A stretch of DNA of 64,000 bases from Methylotuvimicrobium buryatense 5G (GTDB taxonomy: Bacteria > Pseudomonadota > Gammaproteobacteria > Methylococcales > Methylomonadaceae): the NCBI RefSeq assembly GCF_000341735.1, contig NZ_KB455575.1, positions 4,529,973 to 4,593,972 on the forward strand. Reading direction: 5' to 3'. Position numbers and translations under genes: made by a program. Positions 51,689 through 64,000 of the stretch are shown here, piece after piece (positions within the stretch are counted from its first letter, which is position 1; the number at the start of each line of letters is the position of its first letter). The notes beneath the pieces were generated by a model. That model saw only the letters and a list, made by a program, of their open reading frames with translations. It was not told the origin of the DNA and made no database searches.

Positions 51689-51809
51689 GTAATTAAGGAA
51701 TTGGCGGGTTTCAGGAGGGTGATTTATTCGAATGGGGAGGAGATGAAATCCTTCGAAAGCGATTTTGAGTTTGAGCTCAGATGGCAAAATAAAAATCTAC
51801 TTGATGATC

Positions 51810-51822
51810 GTTACACTATAAC
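51810..51822. promoter_or_regulatory. Zur box before the ZnuD-like receptor
   Basis: GTTACA-C-TATAAC, which matches the gammaproteobacterial Zur consensus GTTATA-N-TATAAC at all but one position, in the wider palindrome CGTTACACTATAACG. It lies 90 bases upstream of the receptor ATG. Zur with zinc bound represses from such sites. Confidence 0.75.
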
Positions 51823-51912
51823 GTATCTTATTGTTTTTTTTATGGATCTCTTTGCTGCTTTGCAGAGAAAATTACGAAATTGTCGCGATAAATTGCCGAT
51901 CAGTCTGAACTC

Positions 51913-54006
51913 ATGCGCAAATCACTCACATTATTGTTAGCTCCCTTCGCTTCGGTGGCTCATGCCTCCGATGTAAACAAAGCTTCGAAATCCATTATGT
52001 TGGATAAAATCGTCGTCAGCTCACCCTTGCCGCAATCGGCTTCCGATACCGCTTTGCCCGTGACTATTTTGAGCGGCGAAGAATTGCGTTTGAAAGCGGG
52101 CAGCACGATCGGTGATACCTTGAAGAATGAGCCGGGCATTCATAGTCAATCCTTCGGTCCCGGTGTCGGTCAGCCGGTCATTCGGGGTCAAACCGGATCG
52201 CGAGCGCAAGTTCTGCAAAACGGCTTGGGCAGTCTCGATGCGGCTTCGATAAGCCCTGATCACGCGAACAGCACCGAGGGCTTTTGGGCCGAACGTATCG
52301 AGGTATTGAAAGGCCCGGCTACGCTACTTTACGGCGGCGGCGCGATCGGCGGCGTGGTTAACGTAATCGACAACCGCATTCCGGATCGTGTTCCGGATAA
52401 AATGATCGAGGGCGCGGCCGAGCAGCGTTATAACTTCGTCAACGAAGGCAAGACCACGGCTTTCAAATTGGAAGGCGGCAAGGATTTCTTTGCGTGGCAT
52501 CTGGACGGCATGTTCCGGGAAAGCATCGATATGCAGATACCCGGTTGGGCAGTCGACGAATCCGCCGAGGCCGAAAGCCATGAAGACCATGAAGATGAAG
52601 ATTCTTTTAATAATCGGGGGCGTTTGTTGAATTCGAACACGCGAGCTCGTTCCGGTACCGTAGGCTTTTCCTTTGTCGGCGATCCCGGGTTTATCGGCTT
52701 TTCCATCAACCATCTCGACAATAATTATGGGGTGCCGCTGGGTGCTCATGCGCATCATGAGGACGAGGGAGACGAAGATGCTATGCCCGAACGCGTGCGT
52801 ATCGATCTCAAACAAACCCGTTACGATATGAAAAGCGAGATCAAGGACCCTGTGTGGTTTGCCGACAGTTTGCGGATTCGGCTGGGTTATAACGATTACC
52901 AGCATACCGAATTGGAAAACGGCGAAAAAGGCACGGTCTATACCAACACCGGATTCGATAGCCGCCTTGAGTTGATTCAAAAACCTTGGTTACTGTTCGA
53001 TCACGGCGTGGTCGGCGTGCAAACCAAAAATAGCGAATTCGAAGCAAAGGGCGATGAAGCGGTCGTGCCGCGTTCCGATATCGATTCGTTCGGATTTTTT
53101 ACGGTTCAGGACATTCATGTAGGGCCGATGACCTATGAATTCGGCGCACGCGTCGAGCAACAATTCATCGATCCGGACGGCCAAAATCAAAGTACGCATA
53201 CGCCGGTCAGCGGTTCGGCGTCGGCGCTCTGGCATTTTACCGATCAAGACTCGGTTCGGTTGTCGTTTACACATGCTCAGCGCGCGCCGGACGTACAGGA
53301 ATTGTTTTCCAACGGCCCGCATTTGGCGACCAACAGTTACGATATCGGGAATGCAGGCCTTACGGTCGAGGCTGCGAATAATCTGGAATTGGGGCTGCAT
53401 TTCGAGCGCGACTGGGTTCATGCCGACTTCAATCTTTATCATAACTGGGTCAACAATTACATCGCGCAAATCAGAACCGGCGAGTTTTTCGACGAAGATC
53501 ATGGCGAAATCGAGGATGAATGCGATCATGATCACGAGTGTTTGCCGGTTTTCCGGGCGCAACAGCGCGATGCGATTTTGAAAGGTTTCGAAGCGCAAGT
53601 GACCTTTCCGTTGCTGGAAACGCGTTACGGACATTTGGACAGTCAGTTTTTCGGCGATTACGTGCGAGGACAATTTACCGACGGTAGCGATATTCCCCGA
53701 ATGCCGCCTTTACGTTACGGCATGCAGCTTTCGTGGGAGCATACGGCTTGGGCCGCGAATGTGCGCATTACGCGCGCCGAAAGACAGGAAAACCCGGGTT
53801 ACAACGAAACGGAGACGCCCAGTTATTGGTTGTTGAACAGTACAGCCAATTACCGAGTGGCTGCCGGAGACGAAACCGATGTTTTGCTATTCGTCAAAGC
53901 CAGTAACCTTCTGAATCAGGATATCCGTAATTCGGTGTCTTATTTGCGCAATATCGCACCTGAAGCCGGACGTGCCGTGGAGTTGGGTATTCGCGTCGCA
54001 TTTTAG
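51913..54006 (+). CDS. znuD: ZnuD-like TonB-dependent zinc receptor
   Basis: A 697-residue outer-membrane receptor: signal peptide (cleaved after AHA, about residue 19), TonB-box/plug domain (about 30-160; TILSGEELRLKAGSTIGDTL, GPGVGQPVIRGQTGSRAQVLQNG, EVLKGPATLLYGGGAIGGVVNVID) and a barrel ending in VAF with a terminal Phe. Long loops are rich in His, Asp and Glu: SHEDHEDEDS (about 217-226), HAHHEDEGDED and DEDHGEIEDECDHDHEC. These fit zinc capture as in Neisseria ZnuD. A Zur box precedes it. The DNA from 51662 has a 92-codon frame that I regard as chance. Confidence 0.9.
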   Translation: MRKSLTLLLAPFASVAHASDVNKASKSIMLDKIVVSSPLPQSASDTALPVTILSGEELRLKAGSTIGDTLKNEPGIHSQSFGPGVGQPVIRGQTGSRAQVLQNGLGSLDAASISPDHANSTEGFWAERIEVLKGPATLLYGGGAIGGVVNVIDNRIPDRVPDKMIEGAAEQRYNFVNEGKTTAFKLEGGKDFFAWHLDGMFRESIDMQIPGWAVDESAEAESHEDHEDEDSFNNRGRLLNSNTRARSGTVGFSFVGDPGFIGFSINHLDNNYGVPLGAHAHHEDEGDEDAMPERVRIDLKQTRYDMKSEIKDPVWFADSLRIRLGYNDYQHTELENGEKGTVYTNTGFDSRLELIQKPWLLFDHGVVGVQTKNSEFEAKGDEAVVPRSDIDSFGFFTVQDIHVGPMTYEFGARVEQQFIDPDGQNQSTHTPVSGSASALWHFTDQDSVRLSFTHAQRAPDVQELFSNGPHLATNSYDIGNAGLTVEAANNLELGLHFERDWVHADFNLYHNWVNNYIAQIRTGEFFDEDHGEIEDECDHDHECLPVFRAQQRDAILKGFEAQVTFPLLETRYGHLDSQFFGDYVRGQFTDGSDIPRMPPLRYGMQLSWEHTAWAANVRITRAERQENPGYNETETPSYWLLNSTANYRVAAGDETDVLLFVKASNLLNQDIRNSVSYLRNIAPEAGRAVELGIRVAF

Positions 54007-55402: not shown

Positions 55403-55468
55403 GATAAGGTATCGATTTGGTTTCCGACTTGTTATAGCGACACTGAAATTGCGATATCTTAAAGATAT

Positions 55469-55481
55469 GTTATATTGTAAC
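55469..55481. promoter_or_regulatory. Zur box before the first COG0523 gene
   Basis: GTTATA-T-TGTAAC within ATGTTATATTGTAACAAT, a near-perfect match to the Zur consensus. It lies 27 bases before the ATG at 55509, a position where a bound repressor would block the promoter. Confidence 0.82.
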
Positions 55482-55508
55482 AATTAATTCAATACAAAGA
55501 CCTTCCCA

Positions 55509-56750
55509 ATGTTTATCGAAGACGCACCATCCAAGTTGCCAGTAACGGTTTTGTCCGGGTTTTTAGGGGCCGGTAAAACCACTCTGCTCAATCACATTTT
55601 GACCAATCGGGACAATCTCAAGATCGCCGTGATCGTCAACGACATGAGCGAAGTCAATATCGATGCCGCGACGGTCAAGAACGAGATCGAACTCAACCGT
55701 TCCGAGGAAAAACTGGTTGAAATGAGCAACGGCTGTATCTGCTGTACGCTGCGCGAGGATTTGCTCATTGAAGTCGGACAAATGGCTCGCGAAGGCCGTT
55801 TCGATTATTTGTTGATCGAATCGACCGGTATTGCCGAACCGATGCCGATTGCCGAAACCTTCACGTTTCGTGACGAAGAAGGTCGCAGTCTATCCGATGT
55901 CGCGCGGCTCGACACCTTGGTGACCGTCGTCGATGCGGTCAATTTCATGCGTGATTACATGGAAGCCCAATCCTTGAAGGAAGTCGAAGCCGAATTGGGC
56001 GAGGACGACGAACGTAATATCGCCGATCTCTTGGTCGATCAAATCGAGTTCAGCAATGTCATTCTGATTTCCAAGGTCGATCTGATCAGCCGCGACGAAC
56101 TGGCCAATTTGACCGGAATACTGACGCATTTGAATCCCGATGCGGAAATTATCCCGATGATCATGGGACAAGCTCCGCTCGCCAAAATTTTGAATACCGG
56201 GAGATTTGATTTTGACAAAGCGTCGCAGGCACCCGGTTGGCTCCAAGAGATGCGCGGGGCGCATACGCCCGAAACCGAAGAATACGGCATCGCCAGTTTT
56301 GTTTATCATGCCCGCCGTCCGTTTCATCCGGGGCGTTTCTATGACTATCTGCACTACGGCGATTGGAATAACGGGACATTATTGCGCTCGAAAGGCTTTT
56401 TTTGGCTCGCGTCGCGGCCCGAATGGGTCGGTACCTGGTCGCAAGCCGGCGGCATCATGCAGCACGGTTGCGCAGGCCGCTGGTGGGCTTCAGTGCCGAA
56501 AAGCGAATGGCCCGAAGCCTATAAAGCCGATATCGAAGCGCAGTGGCAGCCGCCGTTCGGCGATTGTCGCCAGGAATTGGTGTTCATCGGACAGAATGTC
56601 GATGCCGAACAAACTCGGCGCGAGCTCGATGCCTGTTTATTGACCGATGAAGAGCTCGCGGCGGGAGCCGAAGCTTGGCAACACTATCAAGACGATTTTC
56701 CGCCTTGGCTGGAAACGGCTGCAACGGAAGTCGAAGAAGTCATGTATTGA
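55509..56750 (+). CDS. COG0523 GTPase, ZigA/ZagA type
   Basis: G3E GTPase metallochaperone of 413 residues: Walker [10 protein letters not shown] (residues 17-25), the metal-binding CxCC motif [11 protein letters not shown] (about 76-86), [11 protein letters not shown], and SKVDLI as the base-recognition motif. The long C-terminal CobW_C domain (about 265-380; [19 protein letters not shown]) is typical of the ZigA subgroup that is induced by zinc starvation and supplies zinc to enzymes. A Zur box lies directly upstream. It is followed 12 bases later by the DUF1826 gene, its usual neighbour. Confidence 0.93.
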
Positions 56751-56762
56751 ACGAGGTAAATC

Positions 56763-57431
56763 ATGTCCGCCTTAGCCCAACCTCTATTTCGCGCGCCTTA
56801 TTCGGAAGCGGTTCAGTCCGACGATTTGGCCGATTTAAGCAGAATCTATCAGGATGAAGTCAACCTATGCGTGATCGAGCGAAGCATCGATCCGCGTATC
56901 GAGTCGTTCATCGATTCATTGCTCGCAAGCCCTCAAGAAATCAGCGAGATTCATAATCTTTCGATCGCCGATTTCGATTTTAGCGGCTTGATTCCTCATG
57001 CATCGACTATCGACGGCTATCTTGAATTTTATCGCGACGCGGCGATGCTGACGACGCTGTTTTGCGATTTATTCGAGCTCGAGCGCGTCGGCTTGCGTTT
57101 GCGAACCCTCGACCGGCCGATGTGCCCGAAATTCCATGTCGATCATGTGCCGTGCCGCATGGTCTCGACTTACGGTGGCATCGGTACCGAATGGCTCGAA
57201 GACCGAGCGGTCGACCGCGCCAAATTGGGTATCAATACGCATGGCTTAAACGATAGGCAAGCCGGCGTAATTTTGGACGAATCCTCGATTCATCGAATGC
57301 CCGCATTTTCGGTCGGTCTGCTGAAAGGCAGCAATTGGGCCGGGAACGAACAGCACGGCGCGGTGCACCGTTCGCCGAATCCGAGCGAAGATTGCCCGCG
57401 ACGGCTGTTATTGACATTGGATTTTGCCTAA
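56763..57431 (+). CDS. DUF1826 domain protein
   Basis: The 222-residue cytoplasmic protein matches DUF1826, a family that commonly accompanies COG0523 GTPases of the zinc-starvation response. Visible motifs are CPKFHVDHVPCRMVSTYGGIGTEWL (HxD and a Cys, perhaps a metal site; given by those residues) and AVHRSPNPSEDCPRRLLLTLDFA, where a second His is placed as in the double-stranded beta-helix oxygenases. Function is unknown. Coupling to the GTPase upstream suggests it is a client. Confidence 0.88.
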   Translation: MSALAQPLFRAPYSEAVQSDDLADLSRIYQDEVNLCVIERSIDPRIESFIDSLLASPQEISEIHNLSIADFDFSGLIPHASTIDGYLEFYRDAAMLTTLFCDLFELERVGLRLRTLDRPMCPKFHVDHVPCRMVSTYGGIGTEWLEDRAVDRAKLGINTHGLNDRQAGVILDESSIHRMPAFSVGLLKGSNWAGNEQHGAVHRSPNPSEDCPRRLLLTLDFA

Positions 57432-57615: not shown

Positions 57616-57855
57616 ATGCTCGTTCTTAACGGTATACCGTCTACCTACCAAGAATGGCGCCATTGCATCACCGTCGATTGCAATATTGCACTGACTGAGC
57701 CGTTTGTCGGCGAGCGGATTGCCATATTGAGCAATGCCGGATGCGAAGAAACCCGGCGCTTCGAGCAACTTTACGGCATAGAGCACCGAAAAGCCGTATT
57801 GGGTTGGTTCAGGCAGGCGCAACAAGAATCGACAAAGAAAATGCTGCATTCATGA
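57616..57855 (+). CDS. Small unknown protein coupled to hisI
   Basis: A 79-residue soluble protein: LNGIPSTYQEWRHCITVDCNIALTE, then NAGCEETRRFEQLYGIEHRKAVLGWFRQA, conserved-looking at the Cys and Trp positions. No signal or membrane segment. It ends in a TGA that overlaps the hisI ATG (ATGA), so the two are translated together. I do not recognise the family. The 180 bases before it hold a GGCGGC...GCCGCC palindrome with the GACGCCGTGAATACCTCC core of family A. Confidence 0.55.
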   Translation: MLVLNGIPSTYQEWRHCITVDCNIALTEPFVGERIAILSNAGCEETRRFEQLYGIEHRKAVLGWFRQAQQESTKKMLHS

Positions 57856-58298
57856 TCGAGCAAAACGAAAATCGTGATGTAGGTGAGGCGCTTCCGTGGG
57901 CCGACGTGTTAACCGGTCTGCCGTTCAATGAACAAGGCCTGGTGCCGGCGATCGCGCAACAATACGATACCGGTGAAGTCTTGATGATGGCCTGGATGAA
58001 TCGGGATGCGATACTCGAAACCTTGCAGCACGGGCACGTCTGTTATTGGTCCCGGTCGCGTGCGAAATTGTGGCGCAAAGGCGAAAGCTCGGGGCAAATC
58101 CAAATGCTGAAAGAATTTTATTTGGATTGCGACGGAGACACTTTGCTGCTGAAAGTCGACCAACAAGGGCCTGCCTGTCACACTGGGCGGCGCAGTTGTT
58201 TTTACAATAGGGTGAGCGGTGATCGTGTTGAAGTCGTCAGCGCGCCGCTTATAGCGCCCGATCAATTATACAAACAGTCCCATGGAGCCGAATCATGA
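57852..58298 (+). CDS. hisI: Phosphoribosyl-AMP cyclohydrolase (HisI), zinc-island copy
   Basis: HisI opens the adenine ring of phosphoribosyl-AMP in histidine synthesis and is a zinc enzyme. The 148-residue protein has PAIAQQYDTGEVLMMAWMN, HVCYWSRSRAKLWRKGESSG and all three zinc Cys positions in LDCDGDTLLLKVDQQGPACHTGRRSCF. I chose the ATG at 57852, behind the coupled small gene. HisI duplicates under Zur control are known in other bacteria. Since the ligands are kept, this copy is probably helped by the COG0523 protein overlapping its stop rather than being zinc-free. Confidence 0.93.
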   Translation: MIEQNENRDVGEALPWADVLTGLPFNEQGLVPAIAQQYDTGEVLMMAWMNRDAILETLQHGHVCYWSRSRAKLWRKGESSGQIQMLKEFYLDCDGDTLLLKVDQQGPACHTGRRSCFYNRVSGDRVEVVSAPLIAPDQLYKQSHGAES

Positions 58299-59293
58299 AC
58301 GAAGCGAACGCATTCAATCCCGTACCTGTGACCATTTTAACCGGTTTTCTCGGAGCCGGGAAAACGACATTGCTGAACCGCATCTTATCGGAGGATCACG
58401 GTCACCGGATTGCCGTGATCGAGAACGAGTTCGGAGAGGAGGGGGTCGATAACGACTTGCTGATTCAAGGCGAAGAGCAGATCGTCGAAATGAACAACGG
58501 CTGTATTTGTTGTACCGTGCGCGGGGATTTGGTGCGCATACTCGGCGAATTGGCCGACAAACGCACGGCCGGTGGGGCCGAATTCGATCGCGTGATCATC
58601 GAAACGACCGGATTGGCCGATCCGGCACCGGTCGCGCAAACCTTTTTCGCCGACCGGAATATTGCCGACTTTTACACGCTTGATGCGATCGTGACCGTGG
58701 TTGACGCAAAGCACGCCTCAAACCAGCTTGACGATCATCACGAGGCGCAAGAGCAAGTGGGTTTCGCCGATCGTTTGTTATTATCCAAAACTGATTTAGT
58801 AAGCGCTGAAGAGGTCGAAAATCTCGAAAACCGTTTGCGGGCGATGAATTCGCGGGCGCCTATTCGGCATGTCCATTTCGGTTCTTGCGACATAGGCGAA
58901 GTACTCGACATCCGGGGGTTTAATTTGCAGGCGATTCTGGAGATCGAGCCGGATTTTCTCGAAGACGTCACTCACAAACACGACGATGACATTTCGTCTT
59001 TCGTTTATCGTAGCGACCGCGCTTTCGATGCGGCCCGGATCATGGCTTTTTTTGATGTCATGGTGCGAGTCTACGGCGAAGATTTGTTGCGCTACAAAGG
59101 CATCCTGCAGATCGAAGGCCAGGAAAACCGGATCATCTATCAAGGCGTGCACATGATGATGAATACCGATTTCGGTAAACCTTGGTCGGCGGATGAAAAA
59201 AGTGAAAGCGTGATGGTATTCATCGGGCGCGATTTGCCGAAGCAGGCCTTTATCGACGCGATGGACGAATGCCGGGTTCCTGCCGTAGCGTAA
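58295..59293 (+). CDS. COG0523 GTPase, YjiA/CobW-like
   Basis: The 332-residue G3E GTPase has Walker [10 protein letters not shown] (residues 17-25), CxCC NGCICCTVRGDL, VIIETTGLADPAP and LLSKTDLV, and a C-terminal domain with SSFVYRSDRAFDAAR and the end GRDLPKQAF. A His/Asp patch (VTHKHDDD) before that domain could hold metal. The ATG overlaps the hisI stop, pointing to metal delivery to HisI. It differs from the 413-residue relative upstream by its shorter C-terminal domain. Confidence 0.93.
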   Translation: MNEANAFNPVPVTILTGFLGAGKTTLLNRILSEDHGHRIAVIENEFGEEGVDNDLLIQGEEQIVEMNNGCICCTVRGDLVRILGELADKRTAGGAEFDRVIIETTGLADPAPVAQTFFADRNIADFYTLDAIVTVVDAKHASNQLDDHHEAQEQVGFADRLLLSKTDLVSAEEVENLENRLRAMNSRAPIRHVHFGSCDIGEVLDIRGFNLQAILEIEPDFLEDVTHKHDDDISSFVYRSDRAFDAARIMAFFDVMVRVYGEDLLRYKGILQIEGQENRIIYQGVHMMMNTDFGKPWSADEKSESVMVFIGRDLPKQAFIDAMDECRVPAVA

Positions 59294-59299
59294 CTCCGT

Positions 59300-60076
59300 A
59301 TGCCGATATCTGCCGAAGTCATTTTCTATACGCTGAGTGCATCGTTACTGGTCAGTCTCGTATCGCTGAGCGGTGCTTTCGTTTTTTACCTGGACAGGCA
59401 ATTGCTCAAGCGGCTGCTGCCCTATCTGATCGCGTTGGCGGTCGGCGTTTTATTGGGCGACGCCTTCATTCATTTGATACCCGATGCGGCGGAACGCCAA
59501 GGGTCGATAGCCACGGTTTGTTTGACGACCTTGGCCGGCGTGTTTTTGTTTTTCGTGCTCGAGAAAATCGTACGTTGGCGTCACGACCATACCGTATTTG
59601 CCGACGACTCGATCAAGCCGATGGCGAAGATGAATTTGATGGGCGATGCGGTTCATAATTTTGTCGACGGTATTTTAATCGGCGGCAGTTTTTTGGTGGA
59701 TCCCGTTATCGGGCTGACTACGACGCTTGCCATCGTCGTTCATGAAATACCGCAGGAGATAGGCGATGTCGGCGCACTGGTTTACGGCGGATATAGCCCT
59801 AAAGATGCCGTGCTGTATAACTTTTATTGCTCTTTGACCGTGGTTATGGGTGCGGTGTTTACTCTGCTGCTTGGGCAGTTTGCCGAGGCTTCGTTGATTT
59901 TGCTGCTGCCGATAGCAGCAGGGGGATTTATTTATATTGCCGCGACCGACTTCATTCCGGTATTGCATGAACATTCGAGCCTACGCAATCTTTGCGGACA
60001 ATCGTTCGTGTTCGCTTTAGGTATCGGTTTCATGCAAGCGATCGTCGTACTCGAGGGGAATTTATTGATGCCGTGA
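59300..60076 (+). CDS. ZIP family zinc transporter
   Basis: The 258-residue inner-membrane protein has eight hydrophobic segments with the ZIP metal-site motifs DAFIHLIPDA, MGDAVHNFVDGILIGG (His-Asn-x-x-Asp) and VVHEIPQEIGDVGALV (His-Glu-x-x-Glu). ZIP proteins move zinc into the cytoplasm. The ATG lies 6 bases after the stop of the COG0523 gene, so it belongs to the same operon and fits a zinc-scarcity role. Other metals cannot be excluded. Confidence 0.92.
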   Translation: MPISAEVIFYTLSASLLVSLVSLSGAFVFYLDRQLLKRLLPYLIALAVGVLLGDAFIHLIPDAAERQGSIATVCLTTLAGVFLFFVLEKIVRWRHDHTVFADDSIKPMAKMNLMGDAVHNFVDGILIGGSFLVDPVIGLTTTLAIVVHEIPQEIGDVGALVYGGYSPKDAVLYNFYCSLTVVMGAVFTLLLGQFAEASLILLLPIAAGGFIYIAATDFIPVLHEHSSLRNLCGQSFVFALGIGFMQAIVVLEGNLLMP

Positions 60077-60093: not shown

Positions 60094-60507
60094 TTAAACC
60101 TGCTCTACGCGCAGGCCTGCTTGAATGGCGGCGGTAATCTGTCGTTTGTCGGAGGAAATGAAAACATCGGCTTGCAAGACTATGGCGCTGCCGATATGTA
60201 TGGCATCCATTCCTCGAGGTGTGTTGTTTTCCAAGCTGGAAACTGCATGCATCAATACTTGCGGAGACAAATCGCAAATCGCTGCGTCTTCGATGTCGGC
60301 CATTAAAAGCGATTTTAGTTGTCGGTATTGAACATCGGTGATTTTGTTGTCACGGTATAAACGACAAAATGCCGAGATAATTTCCGGCAAGGCAATGCCG
60401 GATAAACCGATTTCTGTTGCTTTGTCGCACCATTGCAACACGCTATCGGTTCCGTGCTCGCTGATGTAGCGCTTTACAAAAGCTGAGCTATCGAAAAATA
60501 CGCGCAT
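60094..60507 (-). CDS. PIN-domain toxin (VapC-like)
   Basis: The 137-residue protein begins MRVFFDSSAFVKRYISE with the first catalytic Asp, has GLSGIALPEIISAF with the conserved Glu, and PRGMDAIHIGSAIVL and FISSDKRQ with further Asp residues. These are the RNase site of PIN toxins. I chose the ATG at 60507, since the longer frame reads into the antitoxin gene. It lies between the zinc transporter and fhcA on the opposite strand. Confidence 0.88.
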   Translation of the reverse strand: MRVFFDSSAFVKRYISEHGTDSVLQWCDKATEIGLSGIALPEIISAFCRLYRDNKITDVQYRQLKSLLMADIEDAAICDLSPQVLMHAVSSLENNTPRGMDAIHIGSAIVLQADVFISSDKRQITAAIQAGLRVEQV

Positions 60508-60520
60508 GATTAAAGTCGAT

Positions 60521-60748
60521 CTACAGCCCGGCTTCGCGCTCTTCAATAATCATCCGGCTGATCGAAACGCCATCGAGTACTAAGGGTTGGGCTTTTCGAC
60601 GTCGCCAAGAAGGTAAATCCGCTGTGATCGGGATGATGTCGGCGATGGGTTTGCCGTTACGTAGGACCCGAACCGATTCGCCGGCTTCGACGATATCGAA
60701 ATACATTTTTGCGTGGTTTCGAATTTCGGTGAAGTTTGCTTGTTTCAT
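60521..60748 (-). CDS. Phd/YefM-type antitoxin
   Basis: A 75-residue protein with the Phd/YefM N-terminus: TEIRNHAKMYFDIVEAGESVRVLRNGKPIADIIPI (key positions NFTEIR, VRVLRNGKP and PIADIIP), a DNA-binding domain, and a C-terminal toxin-binding tail. It overlaps nothing and lies 13 bases before the PIN gene, so the pair is an operon. The ATG at 60748 is favoured over the frame from 60775. Confidence 0.85.
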   Translation of the reverse strand: MKQANFTEIRNHAKMYFDIVEAGESVRVLRNGKPIADIIPITADLPSWRRRKAQPLVLDGVSISRMIIEEREAGL

Positions 60749-60780
60749 GGTTACCCTTATGAATAAAACGTACAAAATAA

Positions 60781-60793
60781 TGCACAGTATAAC
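60781..60793. promoter_or_regulatory. Weak Zur-box candidate before fhcA
   Basis: TGCACA-G-TATAAC: the right half is perfect and the ACA-N-TATAACG stretch equals that of the receptor's box, but the left half is poor. It lies 65 bases before the fhcA ATG, also between fhcA and the divergent antitoxin, so it may instead be an antitoxin operator. Confidence 0.35.
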
Positions 60794-60857
60794 GATGCTT
60801 GACCAAATGACTCAACCCTTGATTTCTTCTTCAGCAATCATTTAAGGAATTCACACC

Positions 60858-62531
60858 ATGCTGATTCGACTCAAAGGCGGGAAAGTTTACGATCCTGCGC
60901 AAGCGCTCGATGGCGAGATTCGGGATATTTATTTCCGGGACAGTGTCATCGTCGACAAACCGGAAGCCGGCGCCATGATCGATGCCGATTACGACATCGC
61001 CGGCTGCGTGGTCATGGCCGGCGCGATCGATATTCACAGCCATATCGCCGGCGGTAACGTCAACACCGCGCGCTTGTTGCTGCCGGAACAGCACCGCAAT
61101 TTCGTGGCGCGCAAACTCGGTCATCGATTCAGCACCTCCCGCTGGTCGGCGACCGAAACCGGTTATCGTTATGCCCGCATGGGCTATACCACCGTCGTCG
61201 AACCGGCCATACTGCCGATCAATGCCTTGGATGCGCATTTGCAGATGGCCGACATTCCGATCATCGACACGGCGGGGCTCGCGATTCTCGGTAACGACGA
61301 TTATTTGTTGCGTTTAATGCGGAGCGGCGCGTCTCAATCGCAAATCAACGATTACGTCGCCTGGACCTTACACTCGACGCGTTGCCTCGGTTTGAAAGTC
61401 ATCAATGCCGGCGGAGCGAATGCGTTTAAGTCCAATGCCCGTAGCTTCGATCTGGACGATGTCGTTCCCGAATACGGCGTCAGCTCGCGTCATATTTTGC
61501 AAACTTTACAGCGCGCCGCTTGTGAGGTCGAAATTCCGCATCCGGTGCATGTGCATTGCAACAATCTGGGCGTACCCGGCAATGTCGATACCGCATTGGC
61601 GACAATGGAAGCGGCTCAGGGCCTGCCGATGCATTTGGCGCACATTCAATTCTACGGCTACGGCAACGAAGGCGATCGAGGCTTTTCGTCGGCGGCCGCG
61701 AAGCTAATCGACGGATTCAAAAAACACCCGAACATTACGATGGACGTCGGCCAGGTTTTGTTCGGACAAACCGTCACGATATCCGGCGATGTGATCGCGC
61801 AATACAGCCGCAGGAACGATGCTTCGCCGAATAAATGGATCGCCTGGGATGCCGAATGCGAAGGCAGCGGCGGCGTCGTGCCTTACCGCTACAAAGAAAC
61901 GAGTTTCGTCAACAGTCTGCAATGGCTAATCGGCCTGGAAATCTTCTTGTTGGCCGAGGATCCGTGGCGCTTGTTCTTCACGACCGACCATCCGAACGGC
62001 GCGCCGTTTACGATGTATCCTTACCTGATCCGCCTGTTGATGGATCGCGATTATCGATTGCAATGCCTCGAACAATTGAATCAGGAAGCGGTCGCGATGA
62101 GTCTATTGAAGGATCTCGACAAAGAATTTTCGCTCTATGACATCGCCGTGATGACCCGAACCGCCGCCGCCCGTTTGCTGGGCTTGCCGGACCGGGGGCA
62201 TTTGCGGCCCGGTGCGGTAGCCGATATTGCCGTTTACCGCGAACAAGCCGATAAGGCCGCGATGTTCGCCGATGCCGAACTGCTGTTCAAAAACGGCCGC
62301 CTGGCCGTGCAAAACGGTGCGGTCGTCGAACGGTGCAACGGGACGGCACAAGTCGTTCAGCCGCTTTTCGATCACCGTATCGAACGCGATTTGCAAAACT
62401 ATTACGACCGCTTCTACAACCTCGGCCTGGCCAATTTTACGGTCGGCGACGTCGATGCGGGGCAGGCCGATAGCGAACGTTTCCGCGCGCATGCCTGCGG
62501 CCGTCCTTATTTGGCGGAGAATGCCCGGTGA
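60858..62531 (+). CDS. fhcA: Formyltransferase/hydrolase complex subunit A (FhcA)
   Basis: FhcA hydrolyses the formyl group from formyl-methanofuran in the tetrahydromethanopterin pathway of methylotrophs; it is an amidohydrolase with a binuclear zinc site. The 557-residue protein has GAIDIHSHIAGGNVNTAR (His60, His62), the Lys of LGLKVINAGG (residue 180, the carbamylated position), HPVHVHCNNLGVPGNVDT, HLAHIQFYGYGNEGDRGFSS and TTDHPNGAP (Asp377). No fhcB, fhcC or fhcD lies in this window; instead a COG0523 gene overlaps its stop and folE2 follows. It is either the sole copy or, more interesting, a zinc-starvation paralogue. Confidence 0.88.
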   Translation: MLIRLKGGKVYDPAQALDGEIRDIYFRDSVIVDKPEAGAMIDADYDIAGCVVMAGAIDIHSHIAGGNVNTARLLLPEQHRNFVARKLGHRFSTSRWSATETGYRYARMGYTTVVEPAILPINALDAHLQMADIPIIDTAGLAILGNDDYLLRLMRSGASQSQINDYVAWTLHSTRCLGLKVINAGGANAFKSNARSFDLDDVVPEYGVSSRHILQTLQRAACEVEIPHPVHVHCNNLGVPGNVDTALATMEAAQGLPMHLAHIQFYGYGNEGDRGFSSAAAKLIDGFKKHPNITMDVGQVLFGQTVTISGDVIAQYSRRNDASPNKWIAWDAECEGSGGVVPYRYKETSFVNSLQWLIGLEIFLLAEDPWRLFFTTDHPNGAPFTMYPYLIRLLMDRDYRLQCLEQLNQEAVAMSLLKDLDKEFSLYDIAVMTRTAAARLLGLPDRGHLRPGAVADIAVYREQADKAAMFADAELLFKNGRLAVQNGAVVERCNGTAQVVQPLFDHRIERDLQNYYDRFYNLGLANFTVGDVDAGQADSERFRAHACGRPYLAENAR

Positions 62532-63496
62532 ATCGGGCTTCTTCGAAAACGATTCAACGGATACCGGTGATCGTGCTGAGCGGTTTTCTCGGCAGCGGCA
62601 AAACGACGCTATTAAATCATCTGCTCCGCGCCGCACCGCATTCGGCTGTGATCATTAACGAATTCGGCTCGACGCCGATTGATCAAGAATTGCTCGCGGA
62701 GCATAAGATCCCGTTAACAACGCTGTCCGGCGGTTGTTTATGCTGCCAAGTGCGCGGCTCGTTGGCGCCGATGTTAAAAAATCTGCGCATGGCCTACGAT
62801 GCAAAGCCGGTCAAACCGTTTAGCCGTATTTTTATCGAAACCAGCGGCGTGGCGAGTCCCGAGCCGATTCTCGATAAGCTGTTGAACGAACGCTGGCTGG
62901 CGCCGCGCTATCGTTATCAAGGCATGATTACGACCGTCTCGGCGTTGGCCGCCGAAACCTATCTGACGCGCTTTCCCGAAGCCCAAGCGCAGATCGCCTG
63001 GGCCGATAAGCTCGTACTGACCCAAGCCGATTTGGCCGAGGCGGCGCAAGTCGAACGCGTGCAAAACCGACTGCAAGAATTAGCGCCTTCGATTGCGCAT
63101 CTCGAATCGGCACAAACCTCCGGTTTGGCGGAGGCTCTGCTCGATTTTGGCGGCCTATTTCGCCCGATCGCTCAACCTCGGTCGGACGATTTACCCGAGC
63201 ACGGTTTCAATAGCGTGTCGTTGCAACTGGAACAACCGGTTGCTTGGGCGCGCTTGCAAGCGGTGCTTGAAATACTGCTCAGCGACCCGCAAAGTCATAT
63301 CGTCAGAGTGAAGGGCGTGATTTTTACCGAAGAACACGATGGGCCGATGGCGGTCCACGGCATTGCCGGCCATTTGTTTCCGCCGGCGCCGATGCCGCTG
63401 CGGGAGAATGTCGATAACCGAGGGCGCCTGGTCTTTATCGCCGGCGGCGACATCAAGACCTTGGCCGAAACCGTCATGAACGCATTGCGGCAATGA
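62528..63496 (+). CDS. Third COG0523 GTPase
   Basis: The 322-residue G3E GTPase starts with a GTG overlapping the fhcA stop (GTGA). It has Walker A GFLGSGKTT, the metal motif GGCLCCQVRGSL, FIETSGVASPEP and TQADLAE in place of the usual NKxD. This places it in a different subgroup from the other two. C-terminal domain residues HIVRVKGVIF and GRLVFIAGG follow. The coupling to fhcA suggests a metal-delivery role for FhcA or FolE2. Confidence 0.9.
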   Translation: MNRASSKTIQRIPVIVLSGFLGSGKTTLLNHLLRAAPHSAVIINEFGSTPIDQELLAEHKIPLTTLSGGCLCCQVRGSLAPMLKNLRMAYDAKPVKPFSRIFIETSGVASPEPILDKLLNERWLAPRYRYQGMITTVSALAAETYLTRFPEAQAQIAWADKLVLTQADLAEAAQVERVQNRLQELAPSIAHLESAQTSGLAEALLDFGGLFRPIAQPRSDDLPEHGFNSVSLQLEQPVAWARLQAVLEILLSDPQSHIVRVKGVIFTEEHDGPMAVHGIAGHLFPPAPMPLRENVDNRGRLVFIAGGDIKTLAETVMNALRQ

Positions 63497-63540
63497 GATA
63501 TCGACTCCGGCGTTCAATATTTATTTAAAGGAATTCATCA

Positions 63541-64000
63541 ATGAACAATCAATCAAGCATCCCCTCTTTAGAAAACTCTATTGTCGACGTGCAAGGCATT
63601 GCCGACTCGCGGCGTATTGCGATCGACAAGGTCGGCATCAAGGCGATTCGCCATCCGATACGGGTTAAAGATCGGTCGGTCGGCGAACAGCATACGATCG
63701 GTTTATTCGATATGTATGTCAATTTGCCGCACGACTTCAAAGGCACGCATATGTCGCGCTTCGTTGAGATTCTGAATCAACACGACCGCGAAATCAGCGT
63801 CGAATCGTTCGGCTTGATGCTCGAAGAAATGGTGCAGCGCTTGGATGCACAGTCGGGCTACATCGAAATGCAGTTTCCGTTTTTTATCGACAAAGCCGCG
63901 CCGGTCAGCGGCGTGCGCAGCCTGCTCGATTATCAAGTGAGCTTGATCGGCGAAATTGCCGGCAGTGAAGTGCAAACGCGTATCAAAGTCGTCGTCCCGG
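63541..64000 (+). CDS. folE2: Zinc-independent GTP cyclohydrolase FolE2 (cut by the window end)
   Basis: FolE2 (GCYH-IB) makes dihydroneopterin triphosphate and can replace the zinc-dependent FolE when zinc is scarce. Residues 1-153 are in the window: [69 protein letters not shown], which are typical of the family (key positions [15 protein letters not shown] and APVSG). The frame continues beyond 64000. It is the classic partner of COG0523 genes in zinc regulons and confirms the character of the island. Confidence 0.94.

Follow-up and report, generated by a model that had tools for sequence, protein, structure and literature searches.

The stretch analyzed here, a 64,000-nucleotide window on contig NZ_KB455575.1 of Methylotuvimicrobium buryatense 5G, ends in a zinc-starvation locus that holds a stand-alone copy of fhcA, the gene for the amidohydrolase subunit of the formyltransferase/hydrolase complex (Fhc). 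We call this gene fhcA2 and the copy in the canonical fhc cluster fhcA1. Comparison across genomes suggests that fhcA2 is probably a spare Fhc catalytic subunit in the Zur regulon of aerobic methylotrophs, where it would replace FhcA1 under zinc limitation; induction, assembly with FhcBCD and metal use are predicted. With ample zinc, Zur would repress the locus, and FhcA1 from the fhcBADC cluster would serve the Fhc complex. With low zinc, the derepressed locus would supply FhcA2, which would join FhcBCD and keep up the flux from formyl-tetrahydromethanopterin (formyl-H4MPT) to formate. The advantage of FhcA2 would be a tighter hold on two metals than FhcA1 has or acceptance of another metal. 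More tentatively, and in a form that could nearly as well be right as wrong, we propose that zinc-starved methanotrophs and other H4MPT methylotrophs swap their Fhc catalytic subunit for a horizontally acquired, alphaproteobacterial-type FhcA that is under Zur and able to work at zinc levels too low for FhcA1 or with a metal that FhcA1 cannot accept.

fhcA2 is a second fhcA within a zinc-starvation locus

The original prediction had placed an fhcA in a zinc-starvation locus, and the gene content bears this out: a ZnuD-like receptor, three COG0523 GTPases, DUF1826, HisI, a ZIP transporter and FolE2 are all present. In window coordinates, the features are as follows.

51809..51823, + strand: weak Zur-box-like site, 3 mismatches, 5' of the receptor gene
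51913..54006, + strand: ZnuD-like TonB-dependent receptor (best NCBIfam match Zn_piracy_ZnuD, 432.2 bits, under the cut-off of 950)
Listed between the receptor and ZigA, + strand: trypsin-like protein, among the upstream zinc-locus genes
55468..55482, + strand: Zur-box-like site TGTTATATTGTAACA, 1 mismatch, 26 bases 5' of zigA
55509..56750, + strand: ZigA-type COG0523 zinc metallochaperone GTPase (669.5 bits, above the curated cut-off of 600)
56763..57431, + strand: DUF1826 protein
57741..58298, + strand: HisI, phosphoribosyl-AMP cyclohydrolase (two copies in the genome)
58295..59293, + strand: YjiA-type COG0523 GTPase
59300..60076, + strand: ZIP-family metal transporter
60094..60775, - strand: vapBC-like toxin-antitoxin pair between ZIP and fhcA2, separating fhcA2 from the zigA operon
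60858..62531, + strand: fhcA2, 557-amino-acid FhcA, amidohydrolase subunit of the formyltransferase/hydrolase complex (TIGR03121)
62528..63496, + strand: COG0523 GTPase of a third type, C0523c, whose GTG start overlaps the fhcA2 stop (GTGA)
63541..64000 (window end; the gene reaches about 64353 in the genome), + strand: folE2

The predicted overlap of the fhcA2 stop with the start of a metallochaperone GTPase is present at 62528, and the next gene, starting at 63541, is indeed folE2. The overlapping GTPase carries the Walker A motif GFLGSGKT and a CLCC motif. The vapBC-like pair consists of a PIN protein above its cut-off (60094-60546) and a Phd/YefM-like protein slightly under its own (60521-60775). 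The genome has seven PF02492 matches: three are the COG0523 genes of the window, and two are weak partial matches. We take the remaining two to be UreG, beside a UreF-like gene, and HypB, beside a HypD-like gene.

The fhcA2 product belongs to the FhcA family (TIGR03121, 654.5 bits; cut-off, 392.75). Might it be the only FhcA of the organism? A search of the source genome (5.07 Mb, two contigs, estimated 100% complete) with FhcA2 at E <= 10 returned exactly one further match, 54% identical and 3.17 Mb distant. This copy, fhcA1, lies between fhcB and fhcD-fhcC in a complete fhcB-A-D-C cluster, so that fhcA2 as the sole fhcA of the genome is rejected, and the second fhcA that the original prediction had supposed in a standard fhc cluster exists. 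A by-eye reading of the open reading frames over about 14 kb downstream of folE2 found no fhcB, fhcC or fhcD; fhcA2 thus stands apart from fhcBCD, as had been claimed.

The association recurs in many methylotrophs

A search of 121 genomes of the family found FhcA2, among the matches listed, in at least 29: 28 with 68 to 100% identity to the window protein, plus the broken copy of genome G108. Some FhcA match occurs in 119 of the 121, mostly of a second type at about 50 to 55% identity. All 28 FhcA2 neighborhoods (3.4 to 20 kb) hold at least one other zinc-locus gene, and no fhcB, fhcC or fhcD was found in these neighborhoods of the 28 relatives at E 1e-10. ZigA (E <= 1e-120) is present in 25 of the 29 FhcA2 genomes versus 15 of the 92 others, counts that are not independent, as the genomes are related; the four FhcA2 genomes lacking a ZigA match (G065, G082, G025 and G108) have short or edge contigs there. 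As for the canonical copy, 28 FhcA1 loci come from 27 FhcA2 genomes, fhcB adjoins fhcA1 in every one, and fhcD and fhcC also lie within the fetched stretch in 25 (not in L077, L078 and L089). No FhcA1 was found in G025, a genome 76% complete.

A scan of named genomes gave 285 relatives, and among the best 80 of these, zinc-locus FhcA2 occurs in Methylobacter, Crenothrix, Methylomonas, Methylocucumis, Methylocaldum, Methylococcus, Methyloprofundus and Methylophaga. The Methylophaga muralis locus reads zigA, DUF1826, zrgA, a zur-like gene, an ABC transporter, a receptor, ABC permeases, COG0523 and fhcA2, the last two overlapping by 17 bases (transporter and receptor genes were named by eye). The layout in Methylophaga differs, but the partners (zigA, DUF1826, zrgA, zur-like, COG0523 and fhcA2) are the same. 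In a Filomicrobium metagenome-assembled genome (MAG; L209), the stretch that carries fhcA2 also encodes a COG0523 protein and a ZnuA/AztC-like binding protein, and in L211, which encodes the same protein as L117, a double Zur box is followed by hisI and fhcA2. The FhcA2 of Methylomicrobium sp. wino1 (L210) is 96% identical and equals the protein of G060, in the genus group of the window. We checked 18 genomes reached via such loci, 17 of them distinct (G239 = G501): canonical FhcA1 is present in 16 of the 17, the exception being a 2.6-Mb MAG (G503), and FhcB in all 17. Both fhcA genes occur in named strains such as Methylomonas sp. LW13, Methylococcus capsulatus Texas and Methylophaga aminisulfidivorans. 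Because the association of fhcA2 with zinc loci recurs in so many genomes, we consider it more than chance.

FhcA relatives were found in 50 of 369 genomes in a class search and in 14 of 299 in a phylum search; loci of the latter were left out of the locus analysis. Several other arrangements were seen. Marine alphaproteobacteria (L212, L213 and L215; an HIMB59-like record and single-cell genomes) carry a stand-alone FhcA-like gene; by-eye reading shows it in L213 to be transcribed divergently from a folE1-like gene paired with hisI. Sedimenticola- and Thiohalocapsa-type genomes (L200, L204, L205, L206 and L207) have an FhcB-like gene followed by FhcA, with no fhcD or fhcC at E 1e-6 in the fetched stretch. 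A divergent fhcB-A-D-C set, 26 to 58% identical to the usual subunits, occurs in the family genomes G033, G021, G047 and G087 (L097 8867-13535; L098, L099 and L100); in G033 it lies directly beside the canonical cluster.

Zur boxes head some of the gene runs that reach fhcA2

We compared 29 zinc loci (510 kb) with 40 fhc loci (464 kb). At up to 2 mismatches, the Zur box matched 41 times in the zinc loci, some matches overlapping, versus 0 times in the fhc loci; at up to 3 mismatches the counts were 59 and 7, and at up to 4 they were 184 and 144, which is noise. Operon structure was surveyed in 74 FhcA2 loci, 73 of them distinct (L049 and L156 are the same contig). The survey set aside loci with proteins identical to counted ones, six cluster-type loci, and L210 and above; two further distinct proteins lie outside it, L114/L202 with no zinc gene and L117/L211 in a zinc setting. 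In 59 of the 73, a zinc-locus gene on the same strand is directly upstream of fhcA2 at less than 450 bases, often less than 20, and in 30 of the 73 a Zur box with up to 2 mismatches heads the gene run that reaches fhcA2. In the remaining run loci, the box is inside the run, the contig end comes first or no box was found. Such a run is missing from 14 loci: the window, L034, L036, L053, L162, L166, L167, L189, L191, L197, L198, L199, L203 and L209.

The source genome has a Zur-like gene (139.7 bits, under the cut-off of 167; next FUR model, 44.3). For a pattern related to the site at 55468, before zigA, the chance expectation in 64 kb is 0.10 occurrences. That box is 5.4 kb upstream of fhcA2, with the divergent vapBC-like pair in between. 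In a scan of the source genome, 1-mismatch sites numbered three, including the zigA promoter, and 2-mismatch sites also three. Another of the three 1-mismatch boxes, at 1501 of L258, coincides with the beginning of a secreted-looking protein of unknown kind; a gene for zinc uptake of the ZrgA family (2-391) is about 1.1 kb away.

FhcA2 appears to be a working FhcA

We aligned 75 FhcA2 rows (74 distinct) with 15 near cluster-type, 60 FhcA1 and 4 third-type sequences. The candidate metal ligands H60, H62, K180, H231, H233, H259, H262 and D377 (FhcA2 numbering) are invariant, gaps not counted. The binuclear site is described in a review as four His, one Asp and one carboxylated Lys (PMC11656701). 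A zinc-free form arising by ligand loss, as in the DksA and PyrC paralogs, is rejected, as all eight candidates (six His, Lys and Asp) are kept. Comparing the metal ligands of the two copies, as the original prediction had proposed, thus reveals no difference, and the sequence gives no sign of a zinc-free replacement.

FhcA2 matches chain 6s6y_A, presumably the Methylorubrum extorquens enzyme, with an E value of 4.3e-151. Positions fixed in canonical FhcA are kept at 133 of 158 in FhcA2, versus 134 of 161 and 143 of 186 in control lineages. The ratio of nonsynonymous to synonymous substitutions (dN/dS) is 0.04 to 0.10 for FhcA2 and 0.02 to 0.04 for FhcA1, in pairs with computable dS from the genus and near relatives. 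Because canonical positions are kept and dN/dS is low, FhcA2 looks like a working FhcA under constraint, and by its dN/dS it is under purifying selection.

At four positions (FhcA1 numbering) the two types differ. FhcA1 has C238 in 52 of 60 sequences (Ser in the other 8) and C337, C341 and H269 in 60 of 60 each; the FhcA2 rows have N238, G341 and Y269 in 75 of 75 and C337 in 50 of 75. Near cluster-type FhcA has the N and Y in common with FhcA2, and mostly the G. Since those relatives share it, we read the C238/C341/H269 difference as one between lineages and no proof of a lost metal site. Among beta/gamma-type FhcA1 (e.g., L003 6305-7963) all four residues are almost invariant, and most alpha-type FhcA lacks C238, C341 and H269. 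These four residues could give FhcA1 an additional metal or thiol site close to its active site.

FhcA2 was probably acquired horizontally

In a quick tree of 74 representatives, with support from the Shimodaira-Hasegawa-like approximate likelihood ratio test (SH-aLRT) only, 33 FhcA2 sequences (28 labeled zinc and 5 other) fall on one side of a branch with a value of 96. One of the five others, L196, has a FUR-family match directly upstream. The neighbors of this clade are canonical-cluster alphaproteobacterial FhcA and, farther out, Sedimenticola-type and G175-type sequences, away from the FhcA1 of the hosts; L117 and L209 are on long branches, and their exact position is unsure. A duplication of the host fhcA1 is rejected: forcing the FhcA1 and FhcA2 of the family together made the quick tree 727 log-likelihood units worse, with a P value of 0.00018 in the approximately unbiased test (p-AU). 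The best reading of the tree is that FhcA2 was acquired horizontally, as a lineage separate from FhcA1 at about 50 to 54% identity. The simplest account would have such an FhcA enter a zinc locus once and then spread horizontally, after which G037 lost it and a few copies (L162, L166 and L114/L202) moved elsewhere.

Evidence against a zinc-responsive spare, and alternative explanations

Several observations weigh against FhcA2 as a Zur-controlled replacement. It has kept every candidate metal ligand. In the alphaproteobacterial lineage nearest to FhcA2, FhcB is just 25 to 35% identical to host FhcB, so that assembly of FhcA2 with host FhcBCD is not guaranteed. In the source genome, and in G010 with the same upstream sequence and spacing, the divergent vapBC-like pair cuts fhcA2 off from ZIP, and the 82 intergenic bases before fhcA2 of the source genome yielded no Zur box. 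Boxes with up to 2 mismatches are uninformative in a single genome, because a reversed control pattern matched more often there (19 matches per strand versus 6). Two FhcA2 copies are broken (G013 and G108). Genome G037, of the same genus, cleanly lacks fhcA2 between DUF1826 and the COG0523 gene, with the rest of the locus intact. Finally, a small number of FhcA2 copies have no zinc locus around them (L162, L166 and L114/L202).

The surroundings of these outlying copies vary: L162 and L166 have sulfur- and biotin-gene settings, with genes that read as cysN, ilvD, bioA and bioD around L162 and a SulP-like transporter and a cysD-like gene beside L166, and L114/L202 is beside groEL with no zinc gene. 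"Ca. Methylobacter titanis" has such a copy in addition to one in a zinc locus (L147).

Has fhcA2 of the source strain escaped Zur? The vapBC-like pair appears, from sequence comparison, to have inserted into the zinc operon of G000 and G010. These share the same upstream 180 bases, with G078 nearly the same; G060 lacks the entry, and its fhcA2 follows DUF1826 after 147 bases. Because no box precedes fhcA2, Zur control in the source genome rests on comparison and not on its own promoter. We examined one candidate box of its own, a TATAAC half site at about 60788, and rejected it: by hand count it has six mismatches to the full box, and it overlaps the promoter-like -10 of the antitoxin gene on the opposite strand. 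The intervening pair, the lack of a box in the 82 bases and that overlap all fit a switch to another promoter. However, folE2 and the COG0523 gene downstream are classic zinc-starvation genes and would depend on that same promoter, transcription may read through past vapBC, and promoter-like sites such as that of the antitoxin gene are no more frequent than in shuffles (1 found, 1.4 expected). We consider escape rather unlikely, and even if true for this strain it is compatible with a zinc-responsive spare in the relatives. The claim of a Zur-controlled replacement thus stands in part: its zinc-starvation setting is conserved across many genomes with Zur boxes, but the ligands of the two copies are equal, and in the source genome no box precedes fhcA2 and the vapBC-like pair intervenes.

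Conservation of all candidate ligands is also what one would expect of a dose increaser, a gene that raises the number of copies of one zinc enzyme when zinc is scarce, so that part of the pool is metallated, with no change in metal property. A pure dosage gene could be any copy, however, and FhcA2 is of a different lineage (about 50 to 54% identity to FhcA1), with 65 positions fixed differently between the two types in the family set. We consider this explanation unlikely. The gain from FhcA2 at low zinc could lie in a firmer hold on its metal, in use of a different metal or in a higher copy number.

Somewhat less likely still is that FhcA2 has left the Fhc complex and acts as an amidohydrolase on another substrate needed in zinc starvation. 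The absence of fhcB, fhcC and fhcD beside it fits this, as do ten positions that are nearly fixed in FhcA2 and rare in its nearest cluster-type relatives. Yet FhcA2 keeps canonical positions at the rate of cluster-encoded lineages and lies within the known family, above the TIGR03121 cut-off, and FhcB is also encoded in the FhcA2 genomes checked (27 with 28 loci, plus the 17 distinct ones; G499 = G020 is in both). That fhcA2 is a mere passenger in a mobile or shuffled zinc island, with no link to zinc, would suit its horizontal origin, its patchy presence with clean absence from an otherwise intact locus in G037, and the copies elsewhere in genomes, but it is very improbable given purifying selection and the recurrence of zinc loci in different order in Methylomonadaceae, Methylococcus, Methylophaga and Filomicrobium, with hisI-fhcA2 behind a double Zur box in L211/L117.

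The adjacent COG0523 gene is not tied to fhcA2

The original prediction had coupled fhcA to its neighboring COG0523 chaperone. A C0523c GTPase (E <= 1e-45) is present in 49 of the 121 family genomes: 26 are among the 29 with FhcA2, and 23 have no listed FhcA2 match, although G041, G052 and G107 of these are unsure, since a further FhcA match of theirs is not listed. The clearest case is G037, where a GTPase 92% identical follows DUF1826 in the absence of fhcA2. We conclude that C0523c is not a dedicated chaperone, as the gene is also found without fhcA2; a dedicated chaperone-client pair is ruled out, and a fixed coupling of the two genes is not supported, though help from a COG0523 protein is possible.

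Comparison with known zinc-sparing systems

The zinc-sparing paralogs treated in the papers cited here serve translation, folate, histidine, pyrimidine, haem and the cell wall. No paper connecting FhcA, or formylmethanofuran dehydrogenase, with Zur or with zinc starvation was found in the part of the literature that our searches covered, and for this reason we class FhcA2 as a Zur-linked spare of a zinc enzyme that is new in C1 metabolism. If this is true, the step from formaldehyde to formate in methane and methanol oxidation can depend on zinc supply, and zinc would join copper and lanthanides as a possible limit on methanotrophy. Under the more tentative subunit swap proposed above, metal sparing would extend to the flux of carbon and energy through methane oxidation.

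The closest precedents are in Haas et al. 2009, whose main text describes nine Zur-linked families of zinc-enzyme paralogs beside COG0523 genes (HisI, PyrC, Cam, HemB, CysRS, ThrRS, AmiA, QueD and DksA) in addition to FolE2, which works without zinc (PMC2770081). Like those paralogs, FhcA2 is a second copy of a zinc enzyme that clusters with COG0523, folE2, hisI, DUF1826 and Zur boxes. FhcA is absent from the nine families, however, and "formyl" has 0 occurrences in that main text; the enzymes described there are housekeeping ones, whereas FhcA is one subunit of an enzyme complex in dissimilatory C1 metabolism. Several of the paralogs keep intact ligands, and both alternatives for a gain at low zinc are named there: FhcA2 retains its ligands as HisI and CysRS do, while PyrC, HemB and DksA have lost theirs (PMC2770081).

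ShyB of Vibrio cholerae is reported to be Zur controlled, to need a metal-coordinating residue, to resist ethylenediaminetetraacetic acid (EDTA) and to replace its zinc-dependent siblings under chelation (PMC6381278). By analogy, FhcA2 may be read as a Zur-controlled paralog of a zinc-dependent sibling. Unlike FhcA2, ShyB is a cell-wall endopeptidase, and its chelator resistance is experimental where that of FhcA2 is hypothetical (PMC6381278).

Canonical FhcA (6s6y chain A; TIGR03121) belongs to the same family as FhcA2 and has the same ligand positions. N67, C234-N235, Y266 and G338 (FhcA2 numbering) are common to FhcA2, 6s6y chain A and most alphaproteobacterial and Sedimenticola-type cluster FhcA. 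Unlike canonical FhcA, FhcA2 is encoded in a zinc locus, away from fhcBCD.

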